Source: Candidatus Planktophila versatilis (lineage in GTDB: Bacteria; Actinomycetota; Actinomycetes; Nanopelagicales; Nanopelagicaceae). From it: a DNA stretch of 64,000 nucleotides. A model generated the notes under the pieces. It was given only the letters and a program-made list of their open reading frames with translations, was not told where the DNA came from and did not search any database. Positions 5,043 to 55,530 of the stretch are shown in pieces. Within the stretch, counting starts at the first letter, position 1, and the number at the start of each line of letters is the position of its first letter. The position numbers and the translations under genes are program-made. Location of the stretch: the NCBI RefSeq assembly GCF_002288105.1, contig NZ_CP016774.1:992001-1056000 (forward strand), in the 5' to 3' direction.

Positions 5043-5061
5043 GGAAAGTTACTTTCTTCTT

Positions 5062-7622: not shown

Positions 7623-7635
7623 GAATGGGCGCAAG

Positions 7636-9936: not shown

Positions 9937-9941
9937 CGAAC

Positions 9942-16659: not shown

Positions 16660-16695
16660 AGCGTAAATCTACTCTGTAATTTACTTTATAGAAAG

Positions 16696-16731
16696 CAAAT
16701 GGGACTAGTGAATAATCACTAGTCCCATTTG
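16696..16731 (-). terminator. 16-bp perfect stem-loop between binding-protein and ATPase genes
   Basis: The arms at 16696-16711 and 16716-16731 are perfectly complementary over 16 bp around an ATAA loop. In the direction of transcription (minus) the hairpin is followed by CTTTCTATAAAG, only a weak U-rich tract, so it is more likely a leaky terminator or 3'-end stabiliser than a full stop. Its position, just after the binding-protein gene and before the ATPase, permease and enzyme genes, suggests it sets a high binding-protein to transporter ratio. The effect is inferred. Confidence 0.7.
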
Positions 16732-16758
16732 TTGGACTTGAAATCGGTCCTTTACAGA

Positions 16759-31795: not shown

Positions 31796-31860
31796 TAATG
31801 GGCTCCTTCAGGTGTGGCTAATGAGCAGGACGTGTATGCCCCTAATCCTAAAGGCTTAAT

Positions 31861-34104: not shown

Positions 34105-34111
34105 GCCGCGG

Positions 34112-34124
34112 AGTCTATTAGGCT
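34112..34124. promoter_or_regulatory. Adjacent divergent -10 elements for pcrA and the deacetylase gene
   Basis: Only 28 bp separate the two start codons and neither gene has an RBS. TAGACT on the minus strand (34117-34112) ends 7 nt before the pcrA ATG. TAGGCT on the plus strand (34119-34124) ends 8 nt before the deacetylase ATG. Both fit TANNNT at leaderless spacing. Predicted, not demonstrated. Confidence 0.4.
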
Positions 34125-34132
34125 TGTGCATC

Positions 34133-34858: not shown

Positions 34859-34861
34859 ATA

Positions 34862-35818: not shown

Positions 35819-35831
35819 TTTTAGCCCTTCC

Positions 35832-38424: not shown

Positions 38425-38428
38425 CTAT

Positions 38429-40531: not shown

Positions 40532-41290
40532 TTATGCAAATCGGCAGCTCAGGCCGCCGTCAACGATCCAATCTGCCCCGTTCACAAATGAGGCATCATC
40601 GGAGAGAAGGAAGGTAACAACCTTTGCGATCTCTGATGTCTGTGCCATGCGAGCCATTGGTTGCACCGCCATTGATTCGGCCTTCTTTTCAGGCAGCATT
40701 TCAAACCACGACAGCAGTAACGGGGTGAGGGTGTATCCAGGTGAGACCGCGTTGGTGCGGATCTGGTGGATGCCTTCATCAAGTGCCAAGTTGCGGGTCA
40801 AACCAATGACGCCTGACTTTGCAGCTGCATATGGGAAATACTTTGGGTAGGTCATGCGCGCATGGATTGATGCAATATTAACAATCGCACCCTTCTTAGC
40901 TGCTCGCATTGAAGGTAATACTAATTTTGCAGTATGCCAGACGCTCTTTAAATCTACATCAAAGAATTTGTTCCACTCTTCATCGGTCATTTCAACTGCA
41001 TCTGCATTTGAATTCACACCTGCGTTATTGACTAAGCCTGTGATGGGACCGAGCTCTTTTACAATCGCATCGTGGGCCGTCTTAAGTGAATCAAACTTGC
41101 CCACGTCTGCTTGATGAAACATTACTTTAAATCCTTGCGCCGTCAATTCAGCTGCATAAGCTTCACCAGCTGGGACTACGATGTCACAGAACGAAACTCG
41201 AGCTCCTTGTTGAACAGCATCTAAAACAATTGCTGCACCAATTCCAGATGCTCCACCTGTGACAAAAACATGTTCATTTTGAAGTTTCAT
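40532..41290 (-). CDS. SDR-family oxidoreductase
   Basis: A 252-aa classical short-chain dehydrogenase. The NAD(P) loop is G-G-A-S-G-I-G-A-A, the N-N-A-G-V motif follows, and the catalytic Y-A-A-A-K is near residue 159. The C-terminal segment D-G-G-L ends as in sugar dehydrogenases. It lies 4 bp after the galactonate-type dehydratase, so oxidation of an aldose or of a deoxy-sugar acid is likely. Exact substrate not resolvable. Confidence 0.88.
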   Translation of the reverse strand: MKLQNEHVFVTGGASGIGAAIVLDAVQQGARVSFCDIVVPAGEAYAAELTAQGFKVMFHQADVGKFDSLKTAHDAIVKELGPITGLVNNAGVNSNADAVEMTDEEWNKFFDVDLKSVWHTAKLVLPSMRAAKKGAIVNIASIHARMTYPKYFPYAAAKSGVIGLTRNLALDEGIHQIRTNAVSPGYTLTPLLLSWFEMLPEKKAESMAVQPMARMAQTSEIAKVVTFLLSDDASFVNGADWIVDGGLSCRFA

Positions 41291-41294
41291 TTTT

Positions 41295-42458
41295 TCACCA
41301 ATCTGCTACTGAGCCGTCGTTGTGGAACCATTGAACCGGAGTACCCGATACAAATGGGTGTTTCGCTGCTTCTTTTTCATCCATCTCAACGCCGATACCT
41401 GGCGCAGTCGGTGGATAAATATGTCCATCTTTGATTTCTGGGACGCCAGAAAATACTTCTGAACGCCAAGAAACATCCGAGCGCATCACTTCTTGAATGA
41501 GGAAGTTCGGTGTAGTGAGACCAAGATGTACGTTGACCATAGTTGCAATAGGGCCAAGTGGGTTATGTGGGGCCATCGTGACTCCATATGTGTCACAGAG
41601 CGCTGAAATCTTTCGTAGCTCTGTAATGCCACCTGCATGACACACATCCGGTTGAGCGACATCAATAAGACCATCTTCGAGGAGCGGCAGGAAATCCTCA
41701 CGGTGAAGCAGGCGCTCACCCGTGGCAAGCGGAACAGTAATCTTTGCTCGAGCCCGCTTCAGCGCTTCATGTTGATCGGGTGGAACAATTTCTTCGAGAA
41801 AGAGTGGCTTATAAGGAGCTAAAACCTCAGCGAATTGAATCGCCATCGCAGCAGTTGTTCGCCCGTGGAAATCAATCATGATGTCTACATCTGGTCCAGC
41901 AGCACGTCTGGCTGATTCCATCAACTCTCCTGCATGGCGAAGTTTTTGTGCATCTCCAAGCGGTGCCGATTGCGGAACCGCAAGAATTTTCACTGCGGTA
42001 AATCCATCTTTGATGCTCTGCTTCATCTTATCTTCAAAGGAAGAGACACTGTCAGAGTTATAAACGGCATCAGAATTCCCACCACCAAGGTGGTCATACA
42101 TGCGCACTCGATCTCGGGCTAAGCCACCAAGAATGCGCCACAGTGGAACATTGAGATCTTTTGCCGAAATATCCCATAGCGCTTGATCAATTCCGCTTAT
42201 TGCAGACATTGTCACAGCTCCACCTTTAAAGAATGGGTGCCGGTAAAGAATTTGCCAATTGCGCTCGATTTCACGTGGGTCGCGGCCTACAAGTAGCGGC
42301 GCTAAATCTTCTACCGCACCAACGACCGCTTGTGTTTGAAACTCCAGAGTAGCTTCACCAATTCCAATAAGTCCTGCGACATCTGTATATACCCGGACAA
42401 CAACCCAATTGCGCATCTTGGCATTGACAACAGTTGTTGTTATTTTAGTGATCTTCAT
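41295..42458 (-). CDS. Mandelate racemase-family sugar-acid dehydratase (galactonate dehydratase-like)
   Basis: A 387-aa enolase-superfamily enzyme close to D-galactonate dehydratase (DgoD/GalD). Visible features are the D-F-H-G-R segment with the metal Asp and catalytic His, L-E-E-I-V-P-P and T-G-E-R-L-L metal Glu residues, and M-A-P-H-N-P-L-G-P with the second His. It converts an aldonate to a 2-keto-3-deoxy acid, the substrate for the kinase and aldolase encoded just upstream. It overlaps the aldolase gene by ATGA. Confidence 0.88.
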   Translation of the reverse strand: MKITKITTTVVNAKMRNWVVVRVYTDVAGLIGIGEATLEFQTQAVVGAVEDLAPLLVGRDPREIERNWQILYRHPFFKGGAVTMSAISGIDQALWDISAKDLNVPLWRILGGLARDRVRMYDHLGGGNSDAVYNSDSVSSFEDKMKQSIKDGFTAVKILAVPQSAPLGDAQKLRHAGELMESARRAAGPDVDIMIDFHGRTTAAMAIQFAEVLAPYKPLFLEEIVPPDQHEALKRARAKITVPLATGERLLHREDFLPLLEDGLIDVAQPDVCHAGGITELRKISALCDTYGVTMAPHNPLGPIATMVNVHLGLTTPNFLIQEVMRSDVSWRSEVFSGVPEIKDGHIYPPTAPGIGVEMDEKEAAKHPFVSGTPVQWFHNDGSVADW

Positions 42459-43075
42459 TTTCCACCCGATTTCACTCTCTTAATTTCTGCGATGAAAGCT
42501 GCAACTCTTGTAGGAATTTCTGGAATTCCGCCACCTAGTAAAGGTCCCCCGACTCCGAAGCCTAAAACACCTGCAGCAAACCAATCCTTAATGTTTTCTA
42601 CACTTACTCCACCGGTAGCCAACCATTTGGCTTCTGGGAATGGATCTCGAACCGCCTTCAAATATGCGGGGCCAAAGTGTGAGGCTGGAAAGAGTTTCAA
42701 AACTTTCGCACCAGCCTGCAGCGCACGAGCCACATCGGTAGGCGTGGCAACACCTGGAACTGATAGAAGGTTGAGATCAAGGGTCTTCTTAATGACTGCA
42801 GCATCTGTATGTGGTGAGAGAACAAATGTAGCTCCCGCCTTCTTTGCGCTAATGACATGTGCAGGGCTCATAGCTGTTCCAACTCCAACTGTGATTCCCT
42901 TGATGGCTGAGAATTCTTCAATCAGATCAAAGACATCGGGTGTTGTTGTCGTAAATTCAAAAGAGGTAATGCCTGCACTATGTAAGGCATGCGCCGCGCT
43001 CCTGCCTTCAGCCGATGTCTTAGTACGAATAATGGCAACTATCGAACTCTTCTCAAATTCCTCTAGTGCGCTCAT
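42455..43075 (-). CDS. eda: KDPG/KDPGal-type aldolase
   Basis: A 206-aa class I aldolase of the Eda/DgoA family that splits 2-keto-3-deoxy-6-phospho-sugar acids to pyruvate and glyceraldehyde-3-phosphate. The Glu in F-E-F-T-T-T-T-P and the Schiff-base Lys in V-L-K-L-F-P-A are present. The frame extends upstream to 43168, but the ATG at 43075 overlaps the kinase stop as ATGA and gives the normal N-terminus. D-galacto or D-gluco preference cannot be told. Confidence 0.92.
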   Translation of the reverse strand: MSALEEFEKSSIVAIIRTKTSAEGRSAAHALHSAGITSFEFTTTTPDVFDLIEEFSAIKGITVGVGTAMSPAHVISAKKAGATFVLSPHTDAAVIKKTLDLNLLSVPGVATPTDVARALQAGAKVLKLFPASHFGPAYLKAVRDPFPEAKWLATGGVSVENIKDWFAAGVLGFGVGGPLLGGGIPEIPTRVAAFIAEIKRVKSGGK

Positions 43076-44010
43076 GAACTCTTTACCAATCTCTGAGAGA
43101 TGACACCTGATGTGCCAAATGGAAGACCTGTCCAGTCCCCCAAGTGTGATGCAACGAGAGCGCCACATGTACTTCCTTGTAAAATTGATTCTCGCATTGA
43201 AAGTCCACCTAAAATTCCAGAAATCGTACCTCCCACAAAAGCATCCCCAGAACCAACAGGATCCACAGTTTCTACAACTTCTGGGGATATGTCGAACCTT
43301 TCGCCATTGTGCAGCACGCGCATTTTCTGATCACCCGCAGTCATGATTGCTGTTTTTGCACCCGCAGCACCAGCTAGTCGAAGATTTTCTTCCGGGTCGC
43401 TACTTCCCCAGACAACGGCGTATTCGTCCACGCCACCGATAACGATTTCAACATCATGAATGAGTGAATGAAGTGCCTGAGCAGCTTGCGATTCACTCCA
43501 TAGTTTGCGGCGCAGATTGATATCAAAGCTAATTGGAATGTTGTGCTTGCGGGCTACATCCATCGCCTTTGCAACTGCGCCAGCAGAACTTTCCGAGATT
43601 GCAACAGATATTCCAGTCATATGCACCCATCGAGCAGAGGCAATCTCTTCCTCTTTGATATCTGCTACCGAGATTGTTGAGCCGGCAGATGATTTACGAA
43701 GGTAGGTCACATCTATCGGATTCTCTTTGCCACGATTACGCACCAATGCAGGGGTATAAGAATCAACGGTTTTAATTCCATCAAGACTCAGTCCCTCATT
43801 TTTCAGTTTTGCAAGAATATTCTTTCCCAGCTGATCGGCTCCGAGCCGCGAAATCAAAGTTGCACGCAGCCCAAGGCGCGTCACCGCAACTGCAACATTT
43901 ACTTCGGCGCCGGCAACAGATAACTCGAATTTTTCAGCTGTTGCCACATCATCAGTATCAGTTGCAAGAAAGAGCCCCATGATTTCACCTAGGGTATAGA
44001 GATCAGACAT
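43072..44010 (-). CDS. kdgK: 2-keto-3-deoxy-sugar-acid kinase (PfkB family)
   Basis: A 312-aa ribokinase-family kinase. The N-terminal G-A-E-V-N-V-A-V-A substrate loop and C-terminal D-P-V-G-S-G-D-A-F catalytic Asp motif are clear (GSGD rather than the usual GAGD). With an Eda-type aldolase and a galactonate-type dehydratase as neighbours it most likely phosphorylates 2-keto-3-deoxygluconate or -galactonate. The ATG at 44010 overlaps the preceding gene by 8 bp; an upstream in-frame ATG at 44049 adds residues lacking family resemblance. Confidence 0.9.
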   Translation of the reverse strand: MSDLYTLGEIMGLFLATDTDDVATAEKFELSVAGAEVNVAVAVTRLGLRATLISRLGADQLGKNILAKLKNEGLSLDGIKTVDSYTPALVRNRGKENPIDVTYLRKSSAGSTISVADIKEEEIASARWVHMTGISVAISESSAGAVAKAMDVARKHNIPISFDINLRRKLWSESQAAQALHSLIHDVEIVIGGVDEYAVVWGSSDPEENLRLAGAAGAKTAIMTAGDQKMRVLHNGERFDISPEVVETVDPVGSGDAFVGGTISGILGGLSMRESILQGSTCGALVASHLGDWTGLPFGTSGVISQRLVKSS

Positions 44011-44905
44011 TTGTCTGCACCTCTTCAACGAGTGCGAGCATTTCTTCAATCTCTCTTAACGTATCTACATCAAGTGATACGGTCGGATTCCGACAGTAGT
44101 TCGTCTCAATAATTCCGCGCTTAAAAAGAACATCTTTCTCGGCAGCGATAAGTAAGTCGAGATTTGATATCCATCGAGCGATATGCGGGATAAACCTATC
44201 TAGCCGTGAATCAAACTCCTTGTGATCACCTGCGAGCAATGCTCGCTCTGCCCAGAGATACAGATCAGTGAGACCACACCCCGGCTGAAGTCCGTCAGCA
44301 CCTGCGGCAACTCCCTCTTTCCAAAAGATTCCACCCCAGCCAATAAGAGTTCTGACTCGACCGTTAGTTAAGGAATTAACAGTCTTGATTGATTCTGTAG
44401 GTGGATTCGCTTCACATTTAATAATTTGCAGATTCTCATATTTATTTGCAAGATTGACAAGCCCTGAAACATCAGCCATTCCACCGGCTTGCGGAAGGTG
44501 TTGAATTACCACTGGAATTTTGACCGACTTCAAAATAGATTCAAGATGAAAATCTATTTGCGCAGCAGTTGGCGCAAAGAATGTCGGTGGCAAAATATTG
44601 ATGTAATCGACACCCATTGCTTCATAGTCTTTTGCTCGAATTACTGCCAGCTCTGATGAGTGATCTGCCACCGTGGTAATGATCTTCAGATCTGAGCCAG
44701 CACGTTCGGTCAGCAGGATATCCAAGAGTTGATAACGCTCTGGGTCGGAGAGTTTTATATTCTCACTTGCCACCCCGAAGAACAGAGTGGACTTCGTTCC
44801 GATTTCGATAATCCAACGGCAGAGCGCGCGAAAGCTTTCGTAATCGACTTCACCTTTTGTTGTGAAAGGAACAGATAAAACCGGGCAAACGCCTTTGATG
44901 CTCAC
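44003..44905 (-). CDS. Dihydrodipicolinate synthase-family aldolase/dehydratase, variant active site
   Basis: A 300-aa (beta/alpha)8 protein of the DHDPS/NAL family. The Schiff-base Lys is present in I-I-K-C-E-A. The usual G-T-T-G-E motif reads G-V-A-S-E, and the catalytic Tyr of the Y-N-x-P motif is Gln (Q-H-L-P). Members acting on sugar acids (KDG aldolase, ketodeoxyglucarate dehydratase, KdpA-type) show variation here, so lysine synthesis is unlikely. It is placed 18 bp after the permease and coupled to kdgK by overlap, suggesting cleavage or dehydration of a keto-deoxy acid. Confidence 0.82.
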   Translation of the reverse strand: MSIKGVCPVLSVPFTTKGEVDYESFRALCRWIIEIGTKSTLFFGVASENIKLSDPERYQLLDILLTERAGSDLKIITTVADHSSELAVIRAKDYEAMGVDYINILPPTFFAPTAAQIDFHLESILKSVKIPVVIQHLPQAGGMADVSGLVNLANKYENLQIIKCEANPPTESIKTVNSLTNGRVRTLIGWGGIFWKEGVAAGADGLQPGCGLTDLYLWAERALLAGDHKEFDSRLDRFIPHIARWISNLDLLIAAEKDVLFKRGIIETNYCRNPTVSLDVDTLREIEEMLALVEEVQTNV

Positions 44906-44923: not shown

Positions 44924-45928
44924 CTAGCGCTTGATTTTCTTAGAAATAACTGCCTGCATAATCACGGATAAAATGATTACTAGCCCAAAGAATACTTGGG
45001 TGTAAAAGGCGTTGATTCCAGAGGCAACAATTCCGGCATTGATAGCTCCGATAATGAATGAGCCAACAAATGTGCCAGTGACGGTTCCGATACCACCGAA
45101 TACAGAGGTGCCACCCAAGAACACTGATGCAATTGAGTTCATCAGAAGTCCCTCGCCTAGCGTTGGCCAGAAGTATGAAACCTCAAAGGATGCTACTAGG
45201 CCGGCAAAGGCCGCGAAGAATCCCATGATTGCAAAGGTACGTCTCTTCACTTGGTTGACATTCACACCCATCAATTGGGCAGATGTTTTATTGTCGCCAG
45301 TTAAGAAAACATGCGCACCAAATTGAGTTCTATTGAGTACAAACCACAAAATGATTGTGGCTAGGACTGCCCACCAAAATTGATTTGCGATACCGAAAAA
45401 GGATCTACCTACAAGAAGGTTAGAGACGCCGGCTAGCTCCTTATCTGTAAGGCCAACTCCGGAGCCGTTCATCCAAGCAAGTTCGATTCCGCGGAATAGA
45501 AAACCAGTACCTATAGTGATTACAAGTGATGGAATAGCAAAGTAAGTTACTAGCCAGCCATTGAAATATCCAGAGAGAGTTCCGGCAATCAGTGCCCCTG
45601 CAAAGCCCAGCCAGATATTTCCCGTCCCAGAATAAATCTTTGCAAATGTTGCTGTGGATAGCGCCATCACGGCAGGGAATGAAAGATCGATCTCACCGGT
45701 AATAACAATAAGTGTGAGTGGAATTGCCATCAGGGCAAACAGTGGGGTACTCGAAGCAAAGGCTAAATAAATATCCTTAGAGGTAAATGCTTCGGAGGCT
45801 GTGACCACAAAAACGAGCCACATCGCAATTCCAACTCCCCAGATACCAAATTGCATGCCGAATCTGCGCCAAAATGATGGTGGACGTGCTGCGTTGTTCT
45901 TTACCTTTGAATCAGTTTTTTCGCTCAT
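44924..45928 (-). CDS. Sugar ABC transporter permease (RbsC/FrcC type)
   Basis: A 334-aa BPD_transp_2 permease with eight or more hydrophobic helices and the cytoplasmic G-D-N-K-T-S-A-Q-L-M-G-V-N coupling loop. I-T-G-E-I-D-L-S-F-P-A-V is the conserved membrane motif. Only one permease gene is present, so it should act as a homodimer with the single-domain ATPase encoded 7 bp upstream. Sugar unknown. Confidence 0.93.
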   Translation of the reverse strand: MSEKTDSKVKNNAARPPSFWRRFGMQFGIWGVGIAMWLVFVVTASEAFTSKDIYLAFASSTPLFALMAIPLTLIVITGEIDLSFPAVMALSTATFAKIYSGTGNIWLGFAGALIAGTLSGYFNGWLVTYFAIPSLVITIGTGFLFRGIELAWMNGSGVGLTDKELAGVSNLLVGRSFFGIANQFWWAVLATIILWFVLNRTQFGAHVFLTGDNKTSAQLMGVNVNQVKRRTFAIMGFFAAFAGLVASFEVSYFWPTLGEGLLMNSIASVFLGGTSVFGGIGTVTGTFVGSFIIGAINAGIVASGINAFYTQVFFGLVIILSVIMQAVISKKIKR

Positions 45929-45935
45929 AATCTCA

Positions 45936-46706
45936 TTACTCCTTTATAGACCCGGTGCGAGCAACTCGATACATGCTCTCGATTAATTCATCCATTGTAA
46001 TTTCACTCTTTTTATAGTTGCCGGCCACTTTGCCGCGATCGAGCACAATCATCCGGTCAACAGCCGGGTAGATATGGAAAATGTTGTGGTCAATAAAGAT
46101 TGCCGAACGACCAGATTTCTTGATGTTTTGAACAAAATCTAGCGTCTTCTTAGTTTCTGATAGAGACAAGCCTACTGTTGGCTCATCCAAAATCACGAGC
46201 TCGGCATCAAAATAAAGGGCTCTTGTGATTGCCACTCCTTGTTTTTCACCGCCGGACATAGTTAAGACTGCATTATCAGGATGCACTGCCGTTGATGTGA
46301 AACCCATGTGTTCGCTCATGAGGCGGGTTGCTTCGCTTCTCATTTTCTTAACGTCTAATCGACCAAATTTAGTTTTAATCTCTCTGCCCATGAACATATT
46401 GCGCCAGATTGGTTGCAGTTCACAGAGTGCTCGCTCCTGATAGATAGTTTCAATTCCAAGGTCGCGGGCTTTAGCCACGCTCCAGTCGGTTATCTTCTCG
46501 CCCTTAAACCAAATCTCGCCGCCTTCATCTGGCTTGTGGAAACCCATAATTGTCTTAACTAGGGTTGATTTGCCAGCGCCATTATCGCCAAGTAGGCCAA
46601 CAATCTCGCCAGGATAAATTTCTAGATCAACTCCAGATAGAGAGCGAACCTCGCCAAATGTTTTTGAAACATTTTTCAATTGAATTACTGGTGCACTACC
46701 GGACAT
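45936..46706 (-). CDS. Sugar ABC transporter ATPase, single ABC domain (FrcA type)
   Basis: A 256-aa ATPase with one ABC module, unlike the double module of RbsA-type partners. Walker A is G-D-N-G-A-G-K-S-T, the signature reads M-S-G-G-E-K-Q-G and Walker B L-V-I-L-D-E-P-T. The ATG at 46706 has GAAGGGG upstream; the earlier in-frame start at 46763 lies across the stem-loop and is unlikely. Works with the permease encoded next and the binding protein encoded upstream. Confidence 0.92.
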   Translation of the reverse strand: MSGSAPVIQLKNVSKTFGEVRSLSGVDLEIYPGEIVGLLGDNGAGKSTLVKTIMGFHKPDEGGEIWFKGEKITDWSVAKARDLGIETIYQERALCELQPIWRNMFMGREIKTKFGRLDVKKMRSEATRLMSEHMGFTSTAVHPDNAVLTMSGGEKQGVAITRALYFDAELVILDEPTVGLSLSETKKTLDFVQNIKKSGRSAIFIDHNIFHIYPAVDRMIVLDRGKVAGNYKKSEITMDELIESMYRVARTGSIKE

Positions 46707-46728
46707 ATGTCTGAACCCCTTCGAAAAG

Positions 46729-46765
46729 GTGTGTCGGTTGGGAATTACCTTCCCAACCGACACAC
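46729..46765 (-). terminator. 16-bp perfect stem-loop after the sugar-binding-protein gene
   Basis: The arms 46729-46744 and 46750-46765 are perfectly complementary over 16 bp around a 5-nt loop. In the transcribed (minus) direction it is followed by CTTTTCGAAGGGG, a weak U tract running into the RBS of the ATPase gene. Partial termination or 3'-end protection of the binding-protein mRNA is the likely role. Same stem length and slot as the hairpin at 16696-16731, with unrelated sequence. Confidence 0.72.
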
Positions 46766-46785
46766 ACTAATTTATCAGCTATTTA

Positions 46786-47805
46786 TTAGCGGATTTCTAC
46801 CTTTGCAAGTGGTGCTACGACTGCAACGTTTGACTTATCAACGAATCCACCAGCTGTATTCACATCAAGACCTGAGAAACCAAACTTCTTGGTTAGACAG
46901 ATTTGAAGGATTGGTAGGTATCCCTGTAAGAACGGTTGCTGATCGATTACGAGTTGTAGGTAGCCACTCTCGATAGCAGTTGTTGTTGCAGGAGATACGT
47001 CGAATCCACCGAAGTAGACAGATCCTGCCTTCAAGTTTGCTGCCTTCATATATGTTGCTGCAGTAGCAGTTAAGCCACCGTGATCAGTAACAACAGCCTT
47101 CACATTAGGGTTCTTTGCCATGATTCCAGCAAATGTTGGACCGCCTGATGCAGGTGTTGTGTTGGTAGCTTGATCGATTTCCTGATAGATAACTTTAACC
47201 TTCAGTTTTTCGAAGCCATCAATTACACCAACTGTACGCTGACCGCGATCTCCGCCTTGACCCTTAAGGCCCCAAACGAATGCTGAGTCGCCAGCAGAAA
47301 GTTTTCCACGCTTAACCATCTCTGATGCTAGATCTACTCCAGCTTTGTAGTTAACCGCACCGACATAGCCAAATCCCTGTGTTGAATACTGGGCTTGTAG
47401 ATCTACGAGTGATGTGTTCAATGTTGTGACGATGATGCCTTTCTTGAAAGACTCCTCGACGAGTGGTTTAGCAGCTTCTGGTCCCATGAAGCCGTACATT
47501 GCAATGCCGTTTGGCTTTGTTGCAATCGCTTCTTTCCACTGGGTTACCATTTTTGCAGGATCCCAATCTGAGAAGTAGTACTTCACTGTTGGGCCTAGAT
47601 CTCTTTGAGCTTGGCGATAACCGTTATAAACGTTATTTGCAAAGACACCACCTTGTGGACCACCAGGGAATGCGGCGATCTTTACACCTTTGCACCACTG
47701 GCCTGTTGCTGCTGCATTTGCAGATGTTGCACTGTTAAATGCGACAAGTGAAGAAGCTGCAAAGACAAGTGCAACAAAGCCAACTTTAGCTTTCTTGATT
47801 GACAT
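46786..47805 (-). CDS. Sugar ABC transporter substrate-binding protein (RbsB family)
   Basis: A 339-aa periplasmic-binding-type-1 protein with a Sec signal peptide (hydrophobic core ending S-A-N-A-A) and no lipobox Cys. The mature start K-I-A-A-F-P-G-G-P-Q-G-G and W-K-E-A-I-A segments fit the ribose/autoinducer-2 receptor group. An AGGAGG RBS 3-4 bp before the ATG and a strong promoter indicate high expression. It heads the 13-kb minus-strand operon. Ligand unknown; the downstream enzymes argue for a sugar, sugar acid or small oligosaccharide. Confidence 0.92.
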   Translation of the reverse strand: MSIKKAKVGFVALVFAASSLVAFNSATSANAAATGQWCKGVKIAAFPGGPQGGVFANNVYNGYRQAQRDLGPTVKYYFSDWDPAKMVTQWKEAIATKPNGIAMYGFMGPEAAKPLVEESFKKGIIVTTLNTSLVDLQAQYSTQGFGYVGAVNYKAGVDLASEMVKRGKLSAGDSAFVWGLKGQGGDRGQRTVGVIDGFEKLKVKVIYQEIDQATNTTPASGGPTFAGIMAKNPNVKAVVTDHGGLTATAATYMKAANLKAGSVYFGGFDVSPATTTAIESGYLQLVIDQQPFLQGYLPILQICLTKKFGFSGLDVNTAGGFVDKSNVAVVAPLAKVEIR

Positions 47806-48048: not shown

Positions 48049-48813
48049 CTAATACGTTGCCCGCCCGCCTGAGATATCAAAGGTGAATCCTGTGGTGAAG
48101 GAACATGCCGGTGATGCCATAAAGGCAATCATCTCAGCGACTTCTTCTGACTCTCCGATTCGGCCCATCGGGATTCGAGAGATCATGTATTTCATCGTAT
48201 CTTCAGTTGTATTTTCATTTATCGCGGTTCGAATTACCGCAGGGGCCAATGAGTTAATCACTACGCCAGATGCGGCAGCTTCCTTTGCTACACCTTTTAC
48301 ATAGCCAATTAATCCAGCCTTCGCAGTGTTATACGGCGACATTCCAGGGTTGCCTTCTTTGCCTGCAATAGAAACAACTTGCACAATGCGACCATACTTG
48401 CGCTCTTTCATCAGTGGCATCACTGCTTGCGTAATCCAAATCGCACCAAAGAGATCGATTGTTAGTGGCTTGAGGAATTGTTCCCAGGTTATATCTTCTG
48501 TCTGCATTCCAGTTGGTCCCGTAATTCCACCGGCATTCACCACTGAATCAATTCGGCCGTGCTCTTTCTCAATAGCTTTAATCCTTTGACGTACATTTTC
48601 CTCAGAACCCAAATCAAAGAGGTGGTAGGCGGCGCTGGCGCCACTACTTTTTATCTCATCCACAACAGATTTCAAGCCAGTTTCGTTGACATCGAGTGCA
48701 ATGACATGAGCACCACGGCGAGCAAGCAGAATCGCCGATGCTCGCCCGATGCCACTGGCGGCGCCAGTAACTACTGAGATCTGCCCAGCGAGTGATATGA
48801 GGTCTTCGGTCAT
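48049..48813 (-). CDS. SDR-family oxidoreductase
   Basis: A 254-aa classical SDR with T-G-A-A-S-G-I-G-R-A, catalytic Y-N-T-A-K and a D-I-S-G-G-R-A end. Typical of sugar or polyol dehydrogenases near lactonase genes. It is divergent from the SMP-30 lactonase, so oxidation of an aldose to a lactone followed by hydrolysis is a reasonable pairing. The ATG at 48813 has GAAGGG at good spacing; an ATG 33 bp upstream also has a weak RBS and cannot be excluded. Confidence 0.86.
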   Translation of the reverse strand: MTEDLISLAGQISVVTGAASGIGRASAILLARRGAHVIALDVNETGLKSVVDEIKSSGASAAYHLFDLGSEENVRQRIKAIEKEHGRIDSVVNAGGITGPTGMQTEDITWEQFLKPLTIDLFGAIWITQAVMPLMKERKYGRIVQVVSIAGKEGNPGMSPYNTAKAGLIGYVKGVAKEAAASGVVINSLAPAVIRTAINENTTEDTMKYMISRIPMGRIGESEEVAEMIAFMASPACSFTTGFTFDISGGRATY

Positions 48814-48930
48814 GATGAGCCCTTCGGTTGGCGTAAAAAGTTTCATTCACCTATTGAGTATTCACGGCAATTTACACTAACTTGAATACAGTAGAAACCT
48901 TTTTTAGTGCTTTTTTTAAGGGGCTGGCAG

Positions 48931-49821
48931 ATGTCGACTAAAATCTCAGTGGAAGTCTTTGACGAGCGAAAATGCCTTCTCGGTGAAGGCCCTACATCTT
49001 CAGGACCAGGAAACAACCACGTGATGTGGGTCAATATTCTTGAGAACCAAGTCATGTGGCGCAACCTTGAAACTGGGATTGCAGGCGGCTACGACACCTC
49101 AGAGCATGTCTCCTTCGCTATTCCTCGCACACATGGTGGTGAAGTTTTAGGAACTGTCAGTGGGCCGGTATTGCGAGATCCTGACGGAAAAATTCACCAG
49201 CTACCAACACGATCAACTGTCGTAGGCGATGTAGATACAACTCCTACTCGCTGGAATGATGCAAAAGTTTCTCGCAACGGTGACCTGTGGCTTGGCACAA
49301 TGGCTTATGACGTGGAGCCTCATGCAGGTGCGCTATATCGATACACGCCTAATAGTTCTTTTCTAGAGCGCATTGTTAGTGATATAACAATCAGCAATGG
49401 AATGGATTGGTCATTTAAAAATGACGCATTCTTCTACATCGATACCATGGCGCTGAGTATCGATCGATTTGATGTGGCTGCCGATGGTCGAACAATTTCC
49501 AACCGAAGAGCGATGTGGAAAGTCCCCGAAGGAGACCCGGCTCTTCCTGATGGCATGGCGATAGATGAGCAAGACGGCCTTTGGGTTGCATTCTGGGGTG
49601 GCTCTGTTGTGCGACGCTTCGATAAAGATTTCAGAATTACCGCTGAAATTGATATTCCTGCTCCTTTTGTCACGAGCTGTGTATTTGCCGGTCCTGATTT
49701 AGATACTTTGATAATCACAACCGCACATAATGGCCAAGCAGATGCCGTGCCACAGTCCGGTATGACCTTTATCTGCAAGCCCGGTGTCAAAGGGGTTGCG
49801 ACCAACCTCTTCCCTATGTAA
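48931..49821 (+). CDS. SMP-30/gluconolactonase-family lactonase
   Basis: A 296-aa six-bladed beta-propeller of the SMP-30/LRE group, hydrolysing aldonolactones to aldonates. L-L-G-E-G-P holds the first metal Glu, R-W-N-D-A-K and I-S-N-G-M-D-W the metal-binding Asn residues, and L-P-D-G-M-A-I-D the Asp; W-V-A-F-W-G-G follows. The ATG at 48931 has AAGGGG upstream; the ORF extends 24 bp further without support. It is divergent from the SDR gene over an 84-117-bp region and followed by the kinase-enolase operon after 80 bp. Confidence 0.9.
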   Translation: MSTKISVEVFDERKCLLGEGPTSSGPGNNHVMWVNILENQVMWRNLETGIAGGYDTSEHVSFAIPRTHGGEVLGTVSGPVLRDPDGKIHQLPTRSTVVGDVDTTPTRWNDAKVSRNGDLWLGTMAYDVEPHAGALYRYTPNSSFLERIVSDITISNGMDWSFKNDAFFYIDTMALSIDRFDVAADGRTISNRRAMWKVPEGDPALPDGMAIDEQDGLWVAFWGGSVVRRFDKDFRITAEIDIPAPFVTSCVFAGPDLDTLIITTAHNGQADAVPQSGMTFICKPGVKGVATNLFPM

Positions 49822-49901: not shown

Positions 49902-50825
49902 ATGGCTAACTGGCCTTCAACTCGAGATCCAAAAGGACCGATGAAGAAGTCAATTTCACTTCTTAAGAACCAAGGTGTGCAGAGCCAAGATGCAGATGCA
50001 ATTCCCGAATCTGCAAAGCGATTTAAAGATGGCAGTCGTTGGAAAATTGAGATTCCATCTGTCGAAGGTCCAGCAGCTTTCAAGGTTGTTCTTGAAGAAG
50101 CAAAGAAACGTAAACTAAAGATTGATCGCATCTCCCAAGGTTCCGGCATCATGATGCAGACTGATGATGAAATCGCGGAGATGGTGGCGATAGGCAAGAA
50201 AGAAAAGATTGAGGTCTGTCTCTTTGTTGGCCCGCGCGCTGCATGGGATATCGGAAAGCAACCTGTCTCATCCGCTGGCGGAGTAGCCGCGCCTACTCTT
50301 CGTGGTGCTGATCAACTTCGTTATGCAGTTGAAGATGTGCTCCATGGTGCAAGCCTTGGACTTCGCTCCGTTCTTGTTGGAGATCTAGGACTACTTGCCG
50401 TTCTTGGTGAAGCGAAGAAGAAAGGCGACTTGCCTAAAGATTTCATTTTAAAGACCTCAGTTGCCCTTCCCTGCACTAATCCAGCTACGGCAAAGATTTT
50501 GGAAGAGCTAGGTGCATCAACTCTTAATCTTGCAACAGATCTATCGCTGCAACAGATTGCTGCAATTCGTGCCCAGGTAGATGTTCCACTCGATGTTTAC
50601 GTTGAGGGTCCCGATGATTTCGGTGGGGCTGTTCGTCACTATGAAGTTCCAGACTTAGTACGAGTTGCCGCCCCTGTGTATCTGAAATTTACGGTGCGCA
50701 ACTCTCCTGGTCTCTATCCATCCGGCGGCCATATCCAAGGTCTCGTTGAATCAACAGCGCGCGAACGTGTGCGTAGAGCATCAATTGGTCACTCCATGCT
50801 TACGCGCTATGACTACAAGGGTTAA
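49902..50825 (+). CDS. Unrecognised cytosolic protein, probable TIM-barrel (U32-peptidase-like?)
   Basis: A 307-aa soluble protein without signal or membrane segment. Alternating hydrophobic strands and helices (L-R-S-V-L-V-G-D-L-G-L-L, S-T-L-N-L-A-T-D-L-S, L-D-V-Y-V-E-G-P-D-D-F-G-G, L-V-R-V-A-A-P-V-Y-L-K-F) suggest a (beta/alpha)8 barrel. The D-V-Y-V-E-G-P strand has some flavour of the U32 peptidase family, but I do not recognise the family with confidence. It is first of four tightly packed genes (SDR 3 bp later, then kinase and enolase paralogue). The RBS is weak. An acidic, Arg/His-bearing stretch (G-G-A-V-R-H-Y-E-V-P-D) may be the active site. Confidence 0.75.
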   Translation: MANWPSTRDPKGPMKKSISLLKNQGVQSQDADAIPESAKRFKDGSRWKIEIPSVEGPAAFKVVLEEAKKRKLKIDRISQGSGIMMQTDDEIAEMVAIGKKEKIEVCLFVGPRAAWDIGKQPVSSAGGVAAPTLRGADQLRYAVEDVLHGASLGLRSVLVGDLGLLAVLGEAKKKGDLPKDFILKTSVALPCTNPATAKILEELGASTLNLATDLSLQQIAAIRAQVDVPLDVYVEGPDDFGGAVRHYEVPDLVRVAAPVYLKFTVRNSPGLYPSGGHIQGLVESTARERVRRASIGHSMLTRYDYKG

Positions 50826-50828
50826 TTT

Positions 50829-51524
50829 GTGGCAACAAATAACGTTCTAATCTTTGGTGCAACGGGTGCCCTAGGAGGCGCTATCCATGCTCGATTTGTG
50901 AAAGCCGATTGGAACGTTTACTGCGCGGTGCGTTCACCATCAACACTTGCCCACTCTTTTCTCTTGCCAATAACCAAGGACCATCTTCCGGCTGAGATTG
51001 CAGATGTTGAATTCGATGCCGTTATTTTTGCGCAAGGAACGAACACAAATGACAGTGTGATAAGCGGTCAGACTCAAGAGCTGCTACGTGTATTCGAAGG
51101 TAACGTGGTCGCAATCACCGAGGCAACTGCTGGATTGATGCACCACGATAAAATCAAACAAGGTGCGCGAATAGTTATCTTAAGTTCACTGTGGGAGCTA
51201 TCTACTCGCCAAGATAAAATGTCTTACACCGTCTCTAAAGCCGCGGTAGGCGGACTAGTAAGGTCAATGGCGGTAGATCTTGGTCGTGCAAAAGGAATTC
51301 TTGTTAACGGAATCCTCCCCGGAATCGTAAAAACACCAATGGCGGAGAAATTGCTTACAGCTGCACAGATAGCGAATGTGGAAAATGCAACCCCAGGTGG
51401 AAGATTGGTTACTCCGGAAGATGTAGGAAATAGCGCTTACTTATTAGCCAGCGAATCAAATACAGCGATTTCAGGACAAAGCATCTTCGTAGATAATGCA
51501 TTCTCGGTTTCGAGAGTTATTTAA
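50829..51524 (+). CDS. SDR-family oxidoreductase
   Basis: A 231-aa SDR read from a GTG at 50829, 3 bp after the preceding stop. The coenzyme loop G-A-T-G-A-L-G-G, I-L-S-S with the catalytic Ser, and Y-T-V-S-K are present; the C-terminal S-G-Q-S-I-F-V-D is typical of sugar-alcohol or ketoacyl reductases. The N-terminal half is shorter than in the other two SDRs here. Probably the oxidoreductive step of the kinase-enolase pathway. Confidence 0.85.
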   Translation: MATNNVLIFGATGALGGAIHARFVKADWNVYCAVRSPSTLAHSFLLPITKDHLPAEIADVEFDAVIFAQGTNTNDSVISGQTQELLRVFEGNVVAITEATAGLMHHDKIKQGARIVILSSLWELSTRQDKMSYTVSKAAVGGLVRSMAVDLGRAKGILVNGILPGIVKTPMAEKLLTAAQIANVENATPGGRLVTPEDVGNSAYLLASESNTAISGQSIFVDNAFSVSRVI

Positions 51525-51527
51525 GTA

Positions 51528-52523
51528 ATGAGTGTTGAACTTCTCACTGAAGATACGGTAGTTGCATATCTTCAAGCTAGAGGGGTCATTTCTGACACTG
51601 AAAAAGCGACAGTTGAAATCCTGACTGGTGGAGTTTCCAATGTAGTTCTTGCTGTTCAGACTCCATCGAAAGACTTGGTATTAAAGCAGGCACTTGCAGA
51701 ATTGAAGGTGGCAACAAAATGGGAGGCAGATCAACGCCGGGCCATCGTTGAAGCCCATGCGATAGAGACTTTCCATGCACTCTCCCCTCAACAAGTCCCG
51801 GCACTTGTTGATTACGATCCTGACTTATTTACCCTCGTACTCGAGCGAGTTCCACATTCTGCAACGGTCTGGAAGTCAGATTTACTTGAAGGAACTATCT
51901 ATCCAGAGATTGGGGCAAAACTTGGCCACACGCTAGCCACGTGGCATAACTTTGGGCGTAGCTCCGAAGAATCAAGAAAGAAATTCTCGGAAGATTTACT
52001 CTTTGAACAACTTCGCATTACTCCCTTTTATGGCACCGTTGCTGGTAAGAATCCGCCGTTATCTCCAAGAATTATGAGCTTGGTCAAGGAGTTAAAGAGT
52101 GAAAAAACGACGCTAGTTCATGGCGACTTTTCACCGAAGAACATAATGATCAGTGAAGCACAAGATGTATACATTCTAGATTTTGAAGTGACGCATACTG
52201 GTAATCCAGTATTTGACTTAGCGTTTCTCACTGCCCACTTACTCTGTAAATTTCATCGAGCGCAAGATTCTCATAACCGAGGACTCCTTCGTCAAACAGC
52301 GCAGGATTTCCTTAAGGCATACGATGCTGAGAGCGAGATTACACATGCACCCTCTCTTGCTTGGCACACCGCGCTCATCGCACTTGCCCGAGTTGAGGGA
52401 ACTTCACTAGTAAATTACTTAGATGAATCAGCTCAAATCGGGCTGACCAAGCTATGCAAGGGTGCGCTCTCTGAGACAGCTCCCATGAATTTATTAGAAC
52501 TATTTAACGGGGAATCTCAATGA
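51528..52523 (+). CDS. APH-fold small-molecule kinase (methylthioribose-kinase-like)
   Basis: A 331-aa kinase of the aminoglycoside/choline/MTR-kinase superfamily. The nucleotide loop is G-G-V-S-N-V-V (34-40), with K53 as the ATP-binding Lys, the Brenner motif L-V-H-G-D-F-S-P-K-N (D200 catalytic) and the metal segment L-D-F-E (D218/E220). No antibiotic-resistance context exists; its start is 3 bp after the SDR stop and it overlaps the enolase paralogue by ATGA. It therefore probably phosphorylates the hydroxyl of a sugar or sugar acid whose phosphate the enolase-like enzyme then needs. Confidence 0.85.
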   Translation: MSVELLTEDTVVAYLQARGVISDTEKATVEILTGGVSNVVLAVQTPSKDLVLKQALAELKVATKWEADQRRAIVEAHAIETFHALSPQQVPALVDYDPDLFTLVLERVPHSATVWKSDLLEGTIYPEIGAKLGHTLATWHNFGRSSEESRKKFSEDLLFEQLRITPFYGTVAGKNPPLSPRIMSLVKELKSEKTTLVHGDFSPKNIMISEAQDVYILDFEVTHTGNPVFDLAFLTAHLLCKFHRAQDSHNRGLLRQTAQDFLKAYDAESEITHAPSLAWHTALIALARVEGTSLVNYLDESAQIGLTKLCKGALSETAPMNLLELFNGESQ

Positions 52524-53788
52524 AGATCACAAGAGTTCAGGCATTCCAAGTCCTTGACTCCCGGGGTCGCCCAACAGTTGCTGCAGCGATCTCCCTTGCT
52601 GACGCATCTGTTCATACCGCTCGAGTTCCATCAGGTGCCTCGACAGGTGCTCACGAAGCACTTGAATTACGAGATGCCGGCACTGCTCTTGCCGAGAAGT
52701 TCTATGGTGGCAAATCAGTATTTGCCGCAGTTGCAAATATAAATACAAAAATTGCACCAGCACTTGTAGGTAAAGAAGTTGCCCTCCACACAATTGACAA
52801 TCAAATAAGGGAAATTGATCCGAGTACCAGCCGTAAGGGGTTAGGAGCAAACGCCACGCTTGCAGTCTCACTTGCTGGCGCAAAAGCGGAGGCACATAGT
52901 AAGAACCAATCACTGGCTCGTTTTTTCACCCCCACCGGCAATCTCTTACTTCCGATGCCGATGGTCAATATCCTCTCAGGTGGTGCTCATGCCAACCGCA
53001 CATTGGATATTCAAGATGTACTTGTACTTCCACATGGTGCTAAATCTTTCTCAGAAGCCCTTTCCTGGATTGTTGCAATACGAGAGCTTGCTGCGGTTCG
53101 AGGCAAGGAGAGAGGCCTAGTTACTCACCTAGTTGCAGATGAAGGTGGTCTCGGAATTCCATTTGATTCGATAGAGGAAGCTTGCTCTTTTGTGGTCTCA
53201 TGTATTGAGGGGTTTGGCCTAAAGCCAGGTGTCGATGTCTCCCTTGCGCTAGATATTGCATCCACACAATTCTTTGAAAATGGCCAGTATCAACTTCATA
53301 ATGCAAAGCAGAGTTACACATCAGCAGAATTTGTAGATTTCATCACCAATCTTGTGAAGAACCAACCCATCATCTCGATTGAAGATCCTTTCGCTGAAGA
53401 TGACTGGGATTCATGGAAAAATTTTGCATCAGTTGCACCGCCACATTTGCAATTACTTGGTGATGATTTGTTTACAACGAGCCAGTCGCGACTTGAGCGT
53501 GGGATTGCGGAGAAGAGTGCAAACGCAATTCTCATCAAACCAAACCAAAATGGGCTGGTCTCTGACACCCTTCGCGTCCTCGAAAGCGCCCATGGGGCGG
53601 GCTTTAAGACTGTTGTCTCCGCTCGCTCTGGTGAAACGGAAGATAGTTGGCTGGCAGATTTAGCAACAGGTTGGAAGGCGCAGCAAATTAAAGTGGGCTC
53701 AACCCATGGCTCAGAACGCACTGCAAAATGGAACCGCTTACTTGAGTTAGAAGCTACGGAAGAGACGAGCTTCGCTCAACCATTCTAG
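52520..53788 (+). CDS. Enolase paralogue, predicted novel phospho-acid dehydratase
   Basis: A 422-aa enolase-family protein. Compared with yeast enolase numbering it keeps the Ser39 loop (P-S-G-A-S-T-G, 37-43), His159 (H157), Glu211 (E208 in A-D-E-G-G), the Mg ligands Asp246/Glu295/Asp320 (D245, E288, D315), Lys345 (K340), Arg374-Ser375 (R369-S370) and Lys396 (K391). Glu168 is Asp (D166) and His373 of the H-R-S-G-E-T-E-D motif is Ala (A368). Proton abstraction and Mg-enolate chemistry should work, but the substrate pocket is changed. Context (kinase, SDR, sugar-acid genes) argues against a second glycolytic enolase. Confidence 0.88.
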   Translation: MKITRVQAFQVLDSRGRPTVAAAISLADASVHTARVPSGASTGAHEALELRDAGTALAEKFYGGKSVFAAVANINTKIAPALVGKEVALHTIDNQIREIDPSTSRKGLGANATLAVSLAGAKAEAHSKNQSLARFFTPTGNLLLPMPMVNILSGGAHANRTLDIQDVLVLPHGAKSFSEALSWIVAIRELAAVRGKERGLVTHLVADEGGLGIPFDSIEEACSFVVSCIEGFGLKPGVDVSLALDIASTQFFENGQYQLHNAKQSYTSAEFVDFITNLVKNQPIISIEDPFAEDDWDSWKNFASVAPPHLQLLGDDLFTTSQSRLERGIAEKSANAILIKPNQNGLVSDTLRVLESAHGAGFKTVVSARSGETEDSWLADLATGWKAQQIKVGSTHGSERTAKWNRLLELEATEETSFAQPF

Positions 53789-53802: not shown

Positions 53803-55530
53803 TTAGTGTGAGTGACGCGGAATTCCCGATCCACTTCCACCTACCAGGAAGTCAAAGTCTGCACCTAAATGTGCCTGCTGAACATGTTGCACATAAAGCC
53901 GTGACCAACCACGATCGGGAAGCGGATTTGGATTACTCCACTTGGCTCGGCGCTCGGCCAGCACTTCCTCGCTCACATGTAGCGTAAGTGATCGATTCGC
54001 AACATCGAGTTCAATCTCATCGCCGTTTTCAACCAGCGCAAGTGGGCCACCTGCGGCACCTTCTGGTGAAACATGAAGTACAACTGTTCCATAGGCAGTT
54101 CCGCTCATGCGAGCATCAGAGACGCGCACCATGTCGGTAATACCCATCTCAAGAATCTTCTTAGGAAGGGGCATGTTTCCAACTTCCGGAAAACCTGGAT
54201 AACCCATTGGGCCAGCGTTGCGAAGAACGAGAACAGTATCTGGAGTGACATCTAGATCTGGATCATCTGCAACTTCTAAATACTCTTCTATGCGGTCAAA
54301 GACCATTGCCACACCGCGATGTTGCAGGAGCGAAGGAGTAGCTGCCGAAATTTTTAGAACAGCACCATTTGGTGCCAGCGAGCCACGTACGACAACGATG
54401 CCCGAGCCCGACTTCTGGAACGGCTTGGCCATGGGAGTAATGACATCGTCATTCCATGATTTAGCGTTCGCAATATTTTCTGCAACAGTTTTTCCAGAAA
54501 CAGTGATGTGATCTGTATGGAGCAAGCTTTCAATTTCTTTCATAACCACAGGAAGGCCACCAGCATCGAAGAACTCTTCCATCAAATACTTACCTGATGG
54601 CATGAGGTTTACTAGGACTGGAACGTCGCGTGCTAGTCGGTCGAAGTCATCGAGCTCTAGTTTCACGCCAATACGGCCGGCGATTGCAAGGAGGTGAACA
54701 ACAGCGTTTGTTGAGCCACCAATAGCGGCGTTTACCCGGATCGCATTTTCAAAAGCTTCTCGGGTGAGGACTTTAGAAAGTCGTTGATCTTCATGGACCA
54801 TCTGAACAATGCGACGGCCAGCTTCATGGGAAGTTGAGTATCTGCGAGCATCAACTGCCGGAATTGCGGCGCTTCCTGGCAATTGCACGCCGAGCGCTTC
54901 GGTAACACATGCCATTGTGGACGCGGTTCCCATAGTCATACAACTTCCGTTGGAACGAGCTGAGCAGCTCTCCATCGCAAAGAATTCTTCGATTGTCATT
55001 TTGCCAGCGCGAAGTTCTTCGCTGTATTTCCACACTGCAGTGCCAGAACCAAGAGTCTTTCCTTGATAGCGACCATTGAGCATTGGTCCACCGGTAATCA
55101 TCAGAGTTGGAAGATCCACACTTGCAGCTCCCATAAGCAATCCCGGAGGTGTCTTATCGCAACCTGCAAGAAGTACAACGCCATCTAAAGGATTAGCACG
55201 AATTAATTCTTCGGCCTCCATTGCAAGCAAATTGCGATACAACATAGTTGTTGGGCGCATAATTGGTTCACCCAATGACATGGCAGGAAATTCAAGTGGG
55301 AAACCACCAGATTCCCAGACTCCACGCTTAACAGCCTCTGCGACTCGGTTGAGGTGGCCATTGCAAGGATTGAGCTCAGACCAAGTAGACGCAATACCAA
55401 TGACAGGTTTATTGATGAAGACATCTGGGGCGTAGCCTTGATTGCGTAAGCGTTCGCGATAAATGAATCCATGCTTGTCCTTTAGCGCAAACCAGTTTTC
55501 ACTTCTACGAGCAAATACTTCTTCGGACAC
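53803..55530 (-). CDS. IlvD/Edd-family aldonate dehydratase (arabinonate/xylonate type)
   Basis: A 575-aa Fe-S dehydratase. Cluster cysteines match the pentonate dehydratase pattern at C56 (N-P-C-N-G-H), C124 (A-G-C-D-K-T-P-P-G) and C197 (N-G-S-C-M-T-M-G-T). The S-D-A-R-M-S-G-T-A-Y-G substrate motif is present. Length and motifs favour a sugar-acid dehydratase over branched-chain IlvD. It starts with GTG at 55530 behind an AGGAGG RBS and is convergent with the enolase paralogue (14-bp gap). Upstream 55531-55716 must contain its promoter; it holds a repeated GCTAGT but no clear hexamers. Confidence 0.9.
   Translation of the reverse strand: MSEEVFARRSENWFALKDKHGFIYRERLRNQGYAPDVFINKPVIGIASTWSELNPCNGHLNRVAEAVKRGVWESGGFPLEFPAMSLGEPIMRPTTMLYRNLLAMEAEELIRANPLDGVVLLAGCDKTPPGLLMGAASVDLPTLMITGGPMLNGRYQGKTLGSGTAVWKYSEELRAGKMTIEEFFAMESCSARSNGSCMTMGTASTMACVTEALGVQLPGSAAIPAVDARRYSTSHEAGRRIVQMVHEDQRLSKVLTREAFENAIRVNAAIGGSTNAVVHLLAIAGRIGVKLELDDFDRLARDVPVLVNLMPSGKYLMEEFFDAGGLPVVMKEIESLLHTDHITVSGKTVAENIANAKSWNDDVITPMAKPFQKSGSGIVVVRGSLAPNGAVLKISAATPSLLQHRGVAMVFDRIEEYLEVADDPDLDVTPDTVLVLRNAGPMGYPGFPEVGNMPLPKKILEMGITDMVRVSDARMSGTAYGTVVLHVSPEGAAGGPLALVENGDEIELDVANRSLTLHVSEEVLAERRAKWSNPNPLPDRGWSRLYVQHVQQAHLGADFDFLVGGSGSGIPRHSH

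Follow-up and report, generated by a model that had tools for sequence, protein, structure and literature searches.

Why an enolase paralogue lies beside a small-molecule kinase gene in a sugar-acid island of Candidatus Planktophila versatilis: a candidate route of ATP-dependent dehydration

Why should a small genome that already encodes an enolase carry a second, altered enolase gene overlapping a small-molecule kinase gene? The question is raised by a stretch of 64,000 nucleotides of Candidatus Planktophila versatilis (NCBI RefSeq assembly GCF_002288105.1, contig NZ_CP016774.1, positions 992,001 to 1,056,000, forward strand), here called the window, in which positions are counted unless a contig prefix is given; the source genome is a single contig of 1,331,009 bases with completeness given as 100%. 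A preliminary description, made from the letters alone, had placed a four-gene kinase-enolase operon at 49902-53788, its open reading frames (ORFs) spaced by 3, 3 and -4 bp; these coordinates and gaps were confirmed, all four ORFs being on the plus strand:

49902-50825, + strand: U32-like protein, 307 aa (partial Peptidase_U32 match, 39.3 bits, residues 150-236)
50829-51524, + strand: SDR oxidoreductase, 231 aa (Pfam adh_short_C2, 99.3 bits)
51528-52523, + strand: APH-fold small-molecule kinase, 331 aa (Pfam APH, 60.4 bits; 4-bp overlap with the enolase gene)
52520-53788, + strand: enolase paralogue of an altered subfamily (D166, A206, A368), 422 aa (Enolase_C 253.9 bits, Enolase_N 129 bits)

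The conserved unit is the kinase with the altered enolase, rather than the quartet. From sequence comparison we favour, with a probability of about 0.5, a reading in which the two enzymes would use ATP to remove water from a 2,3-dihydroxy acid other than 2-phospho-D-glycerate, passing through an enol phosphate and ending in a 2-keto-3-deoxy acid. The observations behind it are the pairing, the residue changes, the second enolase copy, the neighbouring genes and co-inheritance, upon which every chemical step, the size of the substrate and its stereochemistry are proposed.

The second enolase and its residue signature

The preliminary description had made its proposal depend on the window gene not being the only enolase of the genome, and a sole-enolase role is ruled out by a canonical copy at C1:125403-126245, which gave 441 bits on Enolase_C against 255 bits for the window copy. 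A second, higher-scoring enolase was found in 24 of the 25 genomes holding an altered one, and the 23 of these that were aligned all have canonical residues; the exception was G364 (1.5 Mb), in which a canonical enolase was not seen.

Alignment of the window enolase confirmed the residues described earlier, with D245, E288, D315, K340, K391 and E208 kept, and D166 and A368 at the positions of Glu168 and His373 in the yeast enzyme. S41, H157, R369 and S370 are also retained, and a third change, A206 for Gly, had not been mentioned; the canonical signature (Glu168, a Gly before the DE pair and His373, yeast numbering) is thus absent from this protein. In an alignment of 144 enolase rows, among which some genes are present twice, 106 rows had D166/A368, 37 had Glu/His, and one (L088) differed. 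Position 206, which was not used for sorting, was Ala in 106 of 106 rows of the first kind and Gly in 37 of 37 of the second, and the metal, base and phosphate residues were unchanged in all 106, so that the alterations first noted in a single gene are a fixed feature of a family. In a quick tree with 25 canonical rows, all 25 fell on one side of a branch with a Shimodaira-Hasegawa-like approximate likelihood ratio test (SH-aLRT) support of 100.

Among 67 sequence matches in the PDB, the 60 listed were all named enolase or phosphopyruvate hydratase, and no Ala was present at the His373 position in the five PDB alignments whose residues were read, all five having His. Annotation likewise names the altered enolases phosphopyruvate hydratase or enolase, and genomes therefore appear to have a spare enolase that is probably a different enzyme. 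Glu168 and His373 are presumably located near C3 of the substrate; since the changes lie mainly around C3 and the phosphate side is conserved, the natural substrate may be an acid phosphorylated at C2 and unlike 2-phosphoglycerate at C3.

Pairing with the kinase, and distribution

The window kinase scored 60.4 bits on Pfam APH (PF01636; cut-off 23.2), and its best NCBIfam model was TIGR01767, 5-methylthioribose kinase, at 89.7 bits (below the cut-off of 275). Across 29 aligned rows the motifs HGDxSPKN and DxE were invariant, as were H198, G199, D200, N205 and D218. A kinase hit was obtained at 39 of 43 altered enolase loci and at 0 of 39 canonical ones (n = 82, Fisher p 3e-19), using a profile (A1) built from loci already paired with enolase; the altered enolases lacking a hit were L020 (which starts at a contig end), L031, L040 and L081. 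In regions mapped via the kinase alone, enolase was present in 53 of 59 and absent in six (L237, L243, L244, L249, L251 and L279, with L244 ending at a contig end). Both genes were called in 96 of 103 kinase loci, on the same strand and at most 200 bp apart in 89 of the 96, the commonest spacing being a 4-bp overlap (68 of 96); in the remaining seven (L007, L086, L130, L242, L262, L274, L278) they were not adjacent on one strand within 200 bp. Kinase and enolase distances were correlated beyond what the canonical enolase of the host accounts for (partial r 0.52 over 21 genomes, a value reached in 0 of 2000 permutations; of the 22 genomes mapped, L023 was dropped for want of a row).

These results bear on the possibility that the paralogue is a redundant or moonlighting enolase, still converting 2-phospho-D-glycerate to phosphoenolpyruvate (PEP) and merely carried with a sugar kinase. 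The window protein scored 415 bits on TIGR01060, above the cut-off of 300, and all metal, base and phosphate residues are retained, in agreement with that explanation; set against this, three replacements are fixed together across the family, the pairing is strict and with one kinase family, and the altered enolases lie on the other side of the SH-aLRT 100 branch, so we consider it improbable.

The pair was found in Actinomycetota, Pseudomonadota, Chloroflexota, Rhodothermota, Acidobacteria and one haloarchaeon, and the kinase profile matched 31 of the 337 Alphaproteobacteria genomes sampled and 33 of the 344 Actinomycetes genomes, centre genomes included. Among the named hosts that carry both genes are Embleya, Nonomuraea, Kribbella, Arthrobacter, Nocardia, Parafrankia, Rhodococcus, Rudaea, Sphingobium, Methylobacterium, Rhizobium (kinase and enolase on opposite strands, 4.3 kb apart), Roseibium and Paracoccus, together with Rhodothermales, Caldilineaceae and, among the haloarchaea, Haladaptatus. 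The kinase profile also hit 38 plasmid records, of which 10 were opened, two of those being without annotation and unused; G055/G731 and G057/G733 each represent one place entered twice. The nearest named locus belongs to a Candidatus Planktophila metagenome-assembled genome, whose enolase is 92% identical to the window copy. Related genomes have the kinase only here and there (besides the own genome, 3 of 59 at E 1e-20; 1 of 36 in the same genus, many of these genomes being incomplete), so the window locus is an accessory island.

Co-occurrence of all four families had been suggested as a check on the preliminary description, and the neighbourhood search gave a divided answer, in which the kinase-enolase pair recurs widely and the quartet is not a fixed set. 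Among 104 kinase loci, 14 in addition to the window have the barrel (U32-like), SDR, kinase and enolase genes in a row, all of them in small-genome actinobacteria. A fixed four-gene unit beyond that group was ruled out, with kinase or enolase labelled in none of 12 barrel loci from other genomes.

The barrel protein, previously called unrecognised, has a recognisable U32-family match (PF01136, 39.3 bits, cut-off 22.4), partial in that it covers only model positions 12-92 of 233; in the PDB it had no sequence relative at E 1. A sample of 296 genomes of the phylum showed the family in 31, own genome included. Seven of the 12 barrel loci from other genomes (L115, L116, L123, L124, L126, L127, L128) hold an MR/MLE or IlvD dehydratase together with parts of a sugar ABC importer, with an SDR in three, and the other five hold no dehydratase; on account of these seven, the barrel protein appears to be often a partner of sugar-acid dehydration. 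It is probably a lyase or an accessory step of sugar-acid catabolism, and its place beside the kinase and enolase in the window fits, as circumstantial evidence, a pair doing the job of a dehydratase.

A relative of the barrel protein (29% identity) also occurs at L088, on Enterobacter chuandaensis plasmid NZ_CP097174.1 (locus 6205-16838). An enolase-like gene there, annotated as hypothetical and neither canonical nor altered in its residues (Asp at 168, Lys at 211, Gly at 373), is divergent from this relative and from an APH kinase, a D-2-hydroxyacid dehydrogenase, an aminotransferase, an iron-containing redox enzyme, MFS and nucleotidyltransferase genes. The whole resembles a biosynthetic cluster that draws on the same principle of kinase plus enolase.

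Neighbouring genes and the proposed reaction

The setting in a sugar-acid island, claimed at the outset, was borne out by the gene families around the quartet (lactonase, SDRs, dehydratases, aldolase and importer):

39227-40438: class III CoA-transferase, island edge (in L014 a relative with 77% identity directly follows the pair)
40532-44905, - strand: DHDPS-family lyase, PfkB kinase, KDPG-type aldolase, MR/MLE dehydratase and SDR (Pfam); the dehydratase is of galactonate type (PRK14017 galactonate dehydratase, 357.9 bits, cut-off 311)
44924-47805, - strand: sugar ABC importer, whole
44924-45928, - strand: ABC permease (read by eye from the ORF translation)
45936-46763, - strand: ABC ATPase (read by eye from the ORF translation)
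46786-47805, - strand: ABC substrate-binding protein (Peripla_BP_4, 103.9 bits; rhizopine-binding model, 74.4 bits, below its cut-off of 420)
48049-48846, - strand: SDR, divergent (Pfam adh_short_C2, 178.4 bits), a putative sugar dehydrogenase
48907-49821, + strand: SMP-30/gluconolactonase-type lactonase, upstream of the quartet and on its strand (Pfam SGL, 200.7 bits)
53803-55530, - strand: IlvD/EDD-family sugar-acid dehydratase, convergent with the pair (PRK06131, 881 bits, cut-off 539; PRK13016, L-arabinonate dehydratase, 856.5 bits, below its cut-off of 882)

By analogy with the SDR/FAH route in PMC11199699, the SDR at 50829-51524 may be a C4 (or C1) dehydrogenase.

Neighbouring genes within 7.5 kb of the kinase were labelled by BLAST against a reference set from the analysed loci (at least 60 bits), the label dehydratase covering relatives of IlvD, MR/MLE or UxuA only, and neighbours being hidden where contigs are cut short. 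Counts were made over 67 non-redundant loci (72 minus five under 10 kb), with L088 left out and L228 (3.5 kb) too short for maps. FAH-family hydrolase was found in 27, SDR in 28, D-2-hydroxyacid dehydrogenase in 20, lactonase in seven and a sugar transporter in 25; SDR and D-2-hydroxyacid dehydrogenase occurred together in none, about eight being expected if they were independent, which related loci are not. None of 24 canonical-enolase loci had FAH, SDR, D-2-hydroxyacid dehydrogenase, dehydratase or kinase. In 20 of the 27 FAH loci there is no IlvD, MR/MLE or UxuA-type dehydratase within 7.5 kb, which supports placing the pair in the slot of the dehydratase, as do the surroundings of the Paracoccus and Roseibium pairs given below.

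Under the favoured reading, the substrate would be a 2,3-dihydroxy acid larger than, or otherwise unlike, D-glycerate, namely an aldonate made from a sugar in the SDR/lactonase clusters, and in other clusters a 2-hydroxy acid made from a 2-keto acid by the D-2-hydroxyacid dehydrogenase. The kinase would transfer the gamma-phosphate of ATP to the C2 hydroxyl, and the enolase would bind the carboxylate with two Mg2+ and hold the phosphate through Ser41, His157, Arg369 and Ser370. Lys340 would then take the C2 proton and the C3 hydroxyl would be expelled to give the enol phosphate. Without the side chains of Glu168 and His373, there may be room for, or a different reading of, what is attached at C3. 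Loss of the phosphate (to ADP, by hydrolysis or by a further enzyme) would give the 2-keto-3-deoxy acid, which an SDR could oxidise at C4, and a FAH-family hydrolase could split the product into pyruvate and a shorter acid.

Several observations weigh against this scheme. An ordinary sugar-acid dehydratase (IlvD, MR/MLE, UxuA-like) is present in 15 of the 67 loci, window included, so the pair cannot in every case be standing in for an absent dehydratase; L130 has, in a row, an MR/MLE gene, the kinase, a lactonase and the enolase. None of the five partner families (FAH, SDR, D-2-hydroxyacid dehydrogenase, dehydratase, lactonase) was found in 17 of the 67, and the contrast with the 24 control loci may be partly taxonomic, since these belong to different groups such as cyanobacteria, planctomycetes and Bacteroidota. 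Glu163 and Glu204 of Mycobacterium tuberculosis enolase align with D166 and E208 of the window enolase; according to PMC10619443, in which both residues were mutated, Glu204 serves in removal of the C3 hydroxyl and Glu163 is one of the residues contacting the substrate carboxylate; the alteration at 166 would thus not be purely on the C3 side. A pyruvate-kinase homologue, which would recover ATP, was found in none of 104 kinase loci, and the earlier idea that the reversed order of steps could save phosphate energy is without support. The order itself, kinase then enolase acting on an aldonate, is weakened by the 15 dehydratase-bearing loci, where the pair may act on a later fragment such as glycerate.

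That last possibility can be put as a glycerate salvage, in which the kinase would make 2-phosphoglycerate (perhaps the L form) and the paralogue PEP, the glycerate arising either when a dehydratase, SDR and FAH hydrolase split a hexonate into pyruvate and glycerate or when a D-2-hydroxyacid dehydrogenase reduces hydroxypyruvate to D-glycerate. It would account for the ordinary dehydratase genes (same strand and close to the pair in L021, L022 and L130), the D-2-hydroxyacid dehydrogenase in 20 of 67 loci (that of Sphingobium was best on PGDH, 207 bits, below its cut-off of 454), the PEP carboxylase gene near the Rhizobium pair, and a gene in L226 read by eye as a serine-glyoxylate-type aminotransferase. 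A classical glycerate kinase (PF02595 or MOFRL) was not found in six of 20 altered-enolase genomes, so the window-type kinase could be their only glycerate kinase; the window genome is one of the six, searches of it for PF02595 and PF05161 giving no match, so the window kinase itself has no classical glycerate kinase domain. The remaining 14 of the 20 already hold a classical glycerate kinase, however, and with a canonical enolase in 24 of 25 genomes D-2-phosphoglycerate needs no second one. Salvage also leaves aside the three active-site positions changed in 106 of 106 rows, the 20 of 27 FAH loci with no nearby dehydratase, and the Paracoccus pair, for which the gene table, itself incomplete, gives neither IlvD nor MR/MLE over 45 kb. 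L-2-phosphoglycerate was considered as a substrate, since it would suit hexonates split to L-glycerate; the clusters with D-2-hydroxyacid dehydrogenase would favour 2R acids instead. Taken together, glycerate salvage is the strongest rival but seems less likely, and dehydration of another 2,3-dihydroxy acid is retained as the preferred reading.

A leaving group other than hydroxide, for example sulfite lost from 2-phospho-3-sulfolactate, would make the acid-side residues unnecessary. On a Paracoccus seriniphilus plasmid (L283; record 31034-38665, about 14-21 kb from the pair) there are two UxaA-family genes, a hydroxyacid dehydrogenase, an Ldh-family oxidoreductase and a sulfate exporter, a set resembling that for sulfolactate degradation. 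No sulfite or sulfate exporter was noticed among the unlabelled neighbour clusters shared by at least two kinase loci (sequence starts read by eye), however, and the catalytic Glu208 is kept in 106 of 106 rows, making sulfite loss very improbable. The UxaA-family pair lies about 20-21 kb from the Paracoccus kinase and enolase; nearer to them, at about 7-10 kb, are a semialdehyde dehydrogenase and an HpcH-type aldolase.

Individual clusters vary in their further content. In nine relatives of the window island (L004, L005, L007, L009, L011, L019, L254, L255, L280) a FAH gene lies directly behind IlvD. The window genome has two FAH-family genes, both elsewhere, the one at C1:370042-370890 adjoining a gene read by eye as a FAD-linked 2-hydroxyacid oxidase, and the window itself holds SDRs and the lactonase. 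The Roseibium FAH protein scored 342 bits on the 2,4-didehydro-3-deoxy-L-rhamnonate hydrolase model (below the cut-off of 500), and the nearest listed MR/MLE gene there is about 12.5 kb from the pair. A UxuA-like gene is added in the Nonomuraea operon and likewise in that of Embleya. In L018 (Candidatus Planktophila lacus) an L-arabinose isomerase gene lies upstream of the pair, at 4105-5616. In L241 and L245 the two genes directly 3' of the enolase (about 720 and 512 aa) resemble, by eye, two parts of an indolepyruvate-type ferredoxin oxidoreductase. Seven loci (L036, L054, L058, L059, L062, L085, L086) combine the pair with a D-2-hydroxyacid dehydrogenase and at least one FAH gene, and most of them also have an HpaD-like extradiol dioxygenase, a carboxymuconolactone-decarboxylase-like gene, an alcohol dehydrogenase and a cupin, which suggests an aromatic or related substrate instead of a sugar.

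Viewed across its hosts, we tentatively suggest that the pair may be the core of a widespread undescribed catabolic module, in which a C2 kinase and a re-tuned enolase would dehydrate sugar acids and other 2,3-dihydroxy acids at the expense of ATP and without iron-sulfur chemistry, via 2-phospho and enol-phosphate intermediates, with varied upstream (lactonase or D-2-hydroxyacid dehydrogenase) and downstream (SDR, FAH hydrolase) parts. Nothing resembling the pair was found in the open-access literature, which is weak evidence of absence. If correct, this would be new dehydration chemistry in sugar-acid catabolism, beside the IlvD-type and mandelate-racemase-type dehydratases and with lake actinobacteria among its hosts, and a case of a highly conserved enzyme re-tuned by three fixed residue changes.

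Comparison with known systems

The window family shares with enolase (phosphopyruvate hydratase, TIGR01060/PF00113) its domains, the metal ligands D245, E288 and D315, the base K340, S41, H157, R369, S370 and K391 for binding phosphate and carboxylate, and E208. It differs in having D, A and A instead of E, G and H at 166, 206 and 368, and in being an extra copy across a well-supported branch, nearly always beside a small-molecule kinase gene. In carboxyphosphonoenolpyruvate synthase, a possible parallel, an enolase homologue has been recruited to another phospho-substrate; that enzyme differs in belonging to a natural-product pathway. With 5-methylthioribose kinase (TIGR01767, PDB 2olc) and other APH-fold kinases, the window kinase shares the APH domain and the catalytic HGD loop, and is set apart by its score below the TIGR01767 cut-off, by motifs of its own (SPKN and LARVDGxSPVxYL) and by its pairing with enolase.

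The closest likeness in pathway layout is to non-phosphorylating L-fucose/L-rhamnose 'route 3', which according to PMC11199699 consists of an SDR 1-dehydrogenase, a lactonase, a dehydratase, an SDR 4-dehydrogenase and a 2,4-diketo-3-deoxy hydrolase, the last SDR and the hydrolase turning the 2-keto-3-deoxy acid into pyruvate and a 2-hydroxy acid. As in the published route, genes for SDRs, a lactonase and a FAH-family hydrolase are repeatedly found next to the pair, and the nine window-island relatives have IlvD with FAH too. Unlike it, a kinase and an enolase are added to, or would replace, the dehydratase, and the FAH genes of the window genome lie outside the island.

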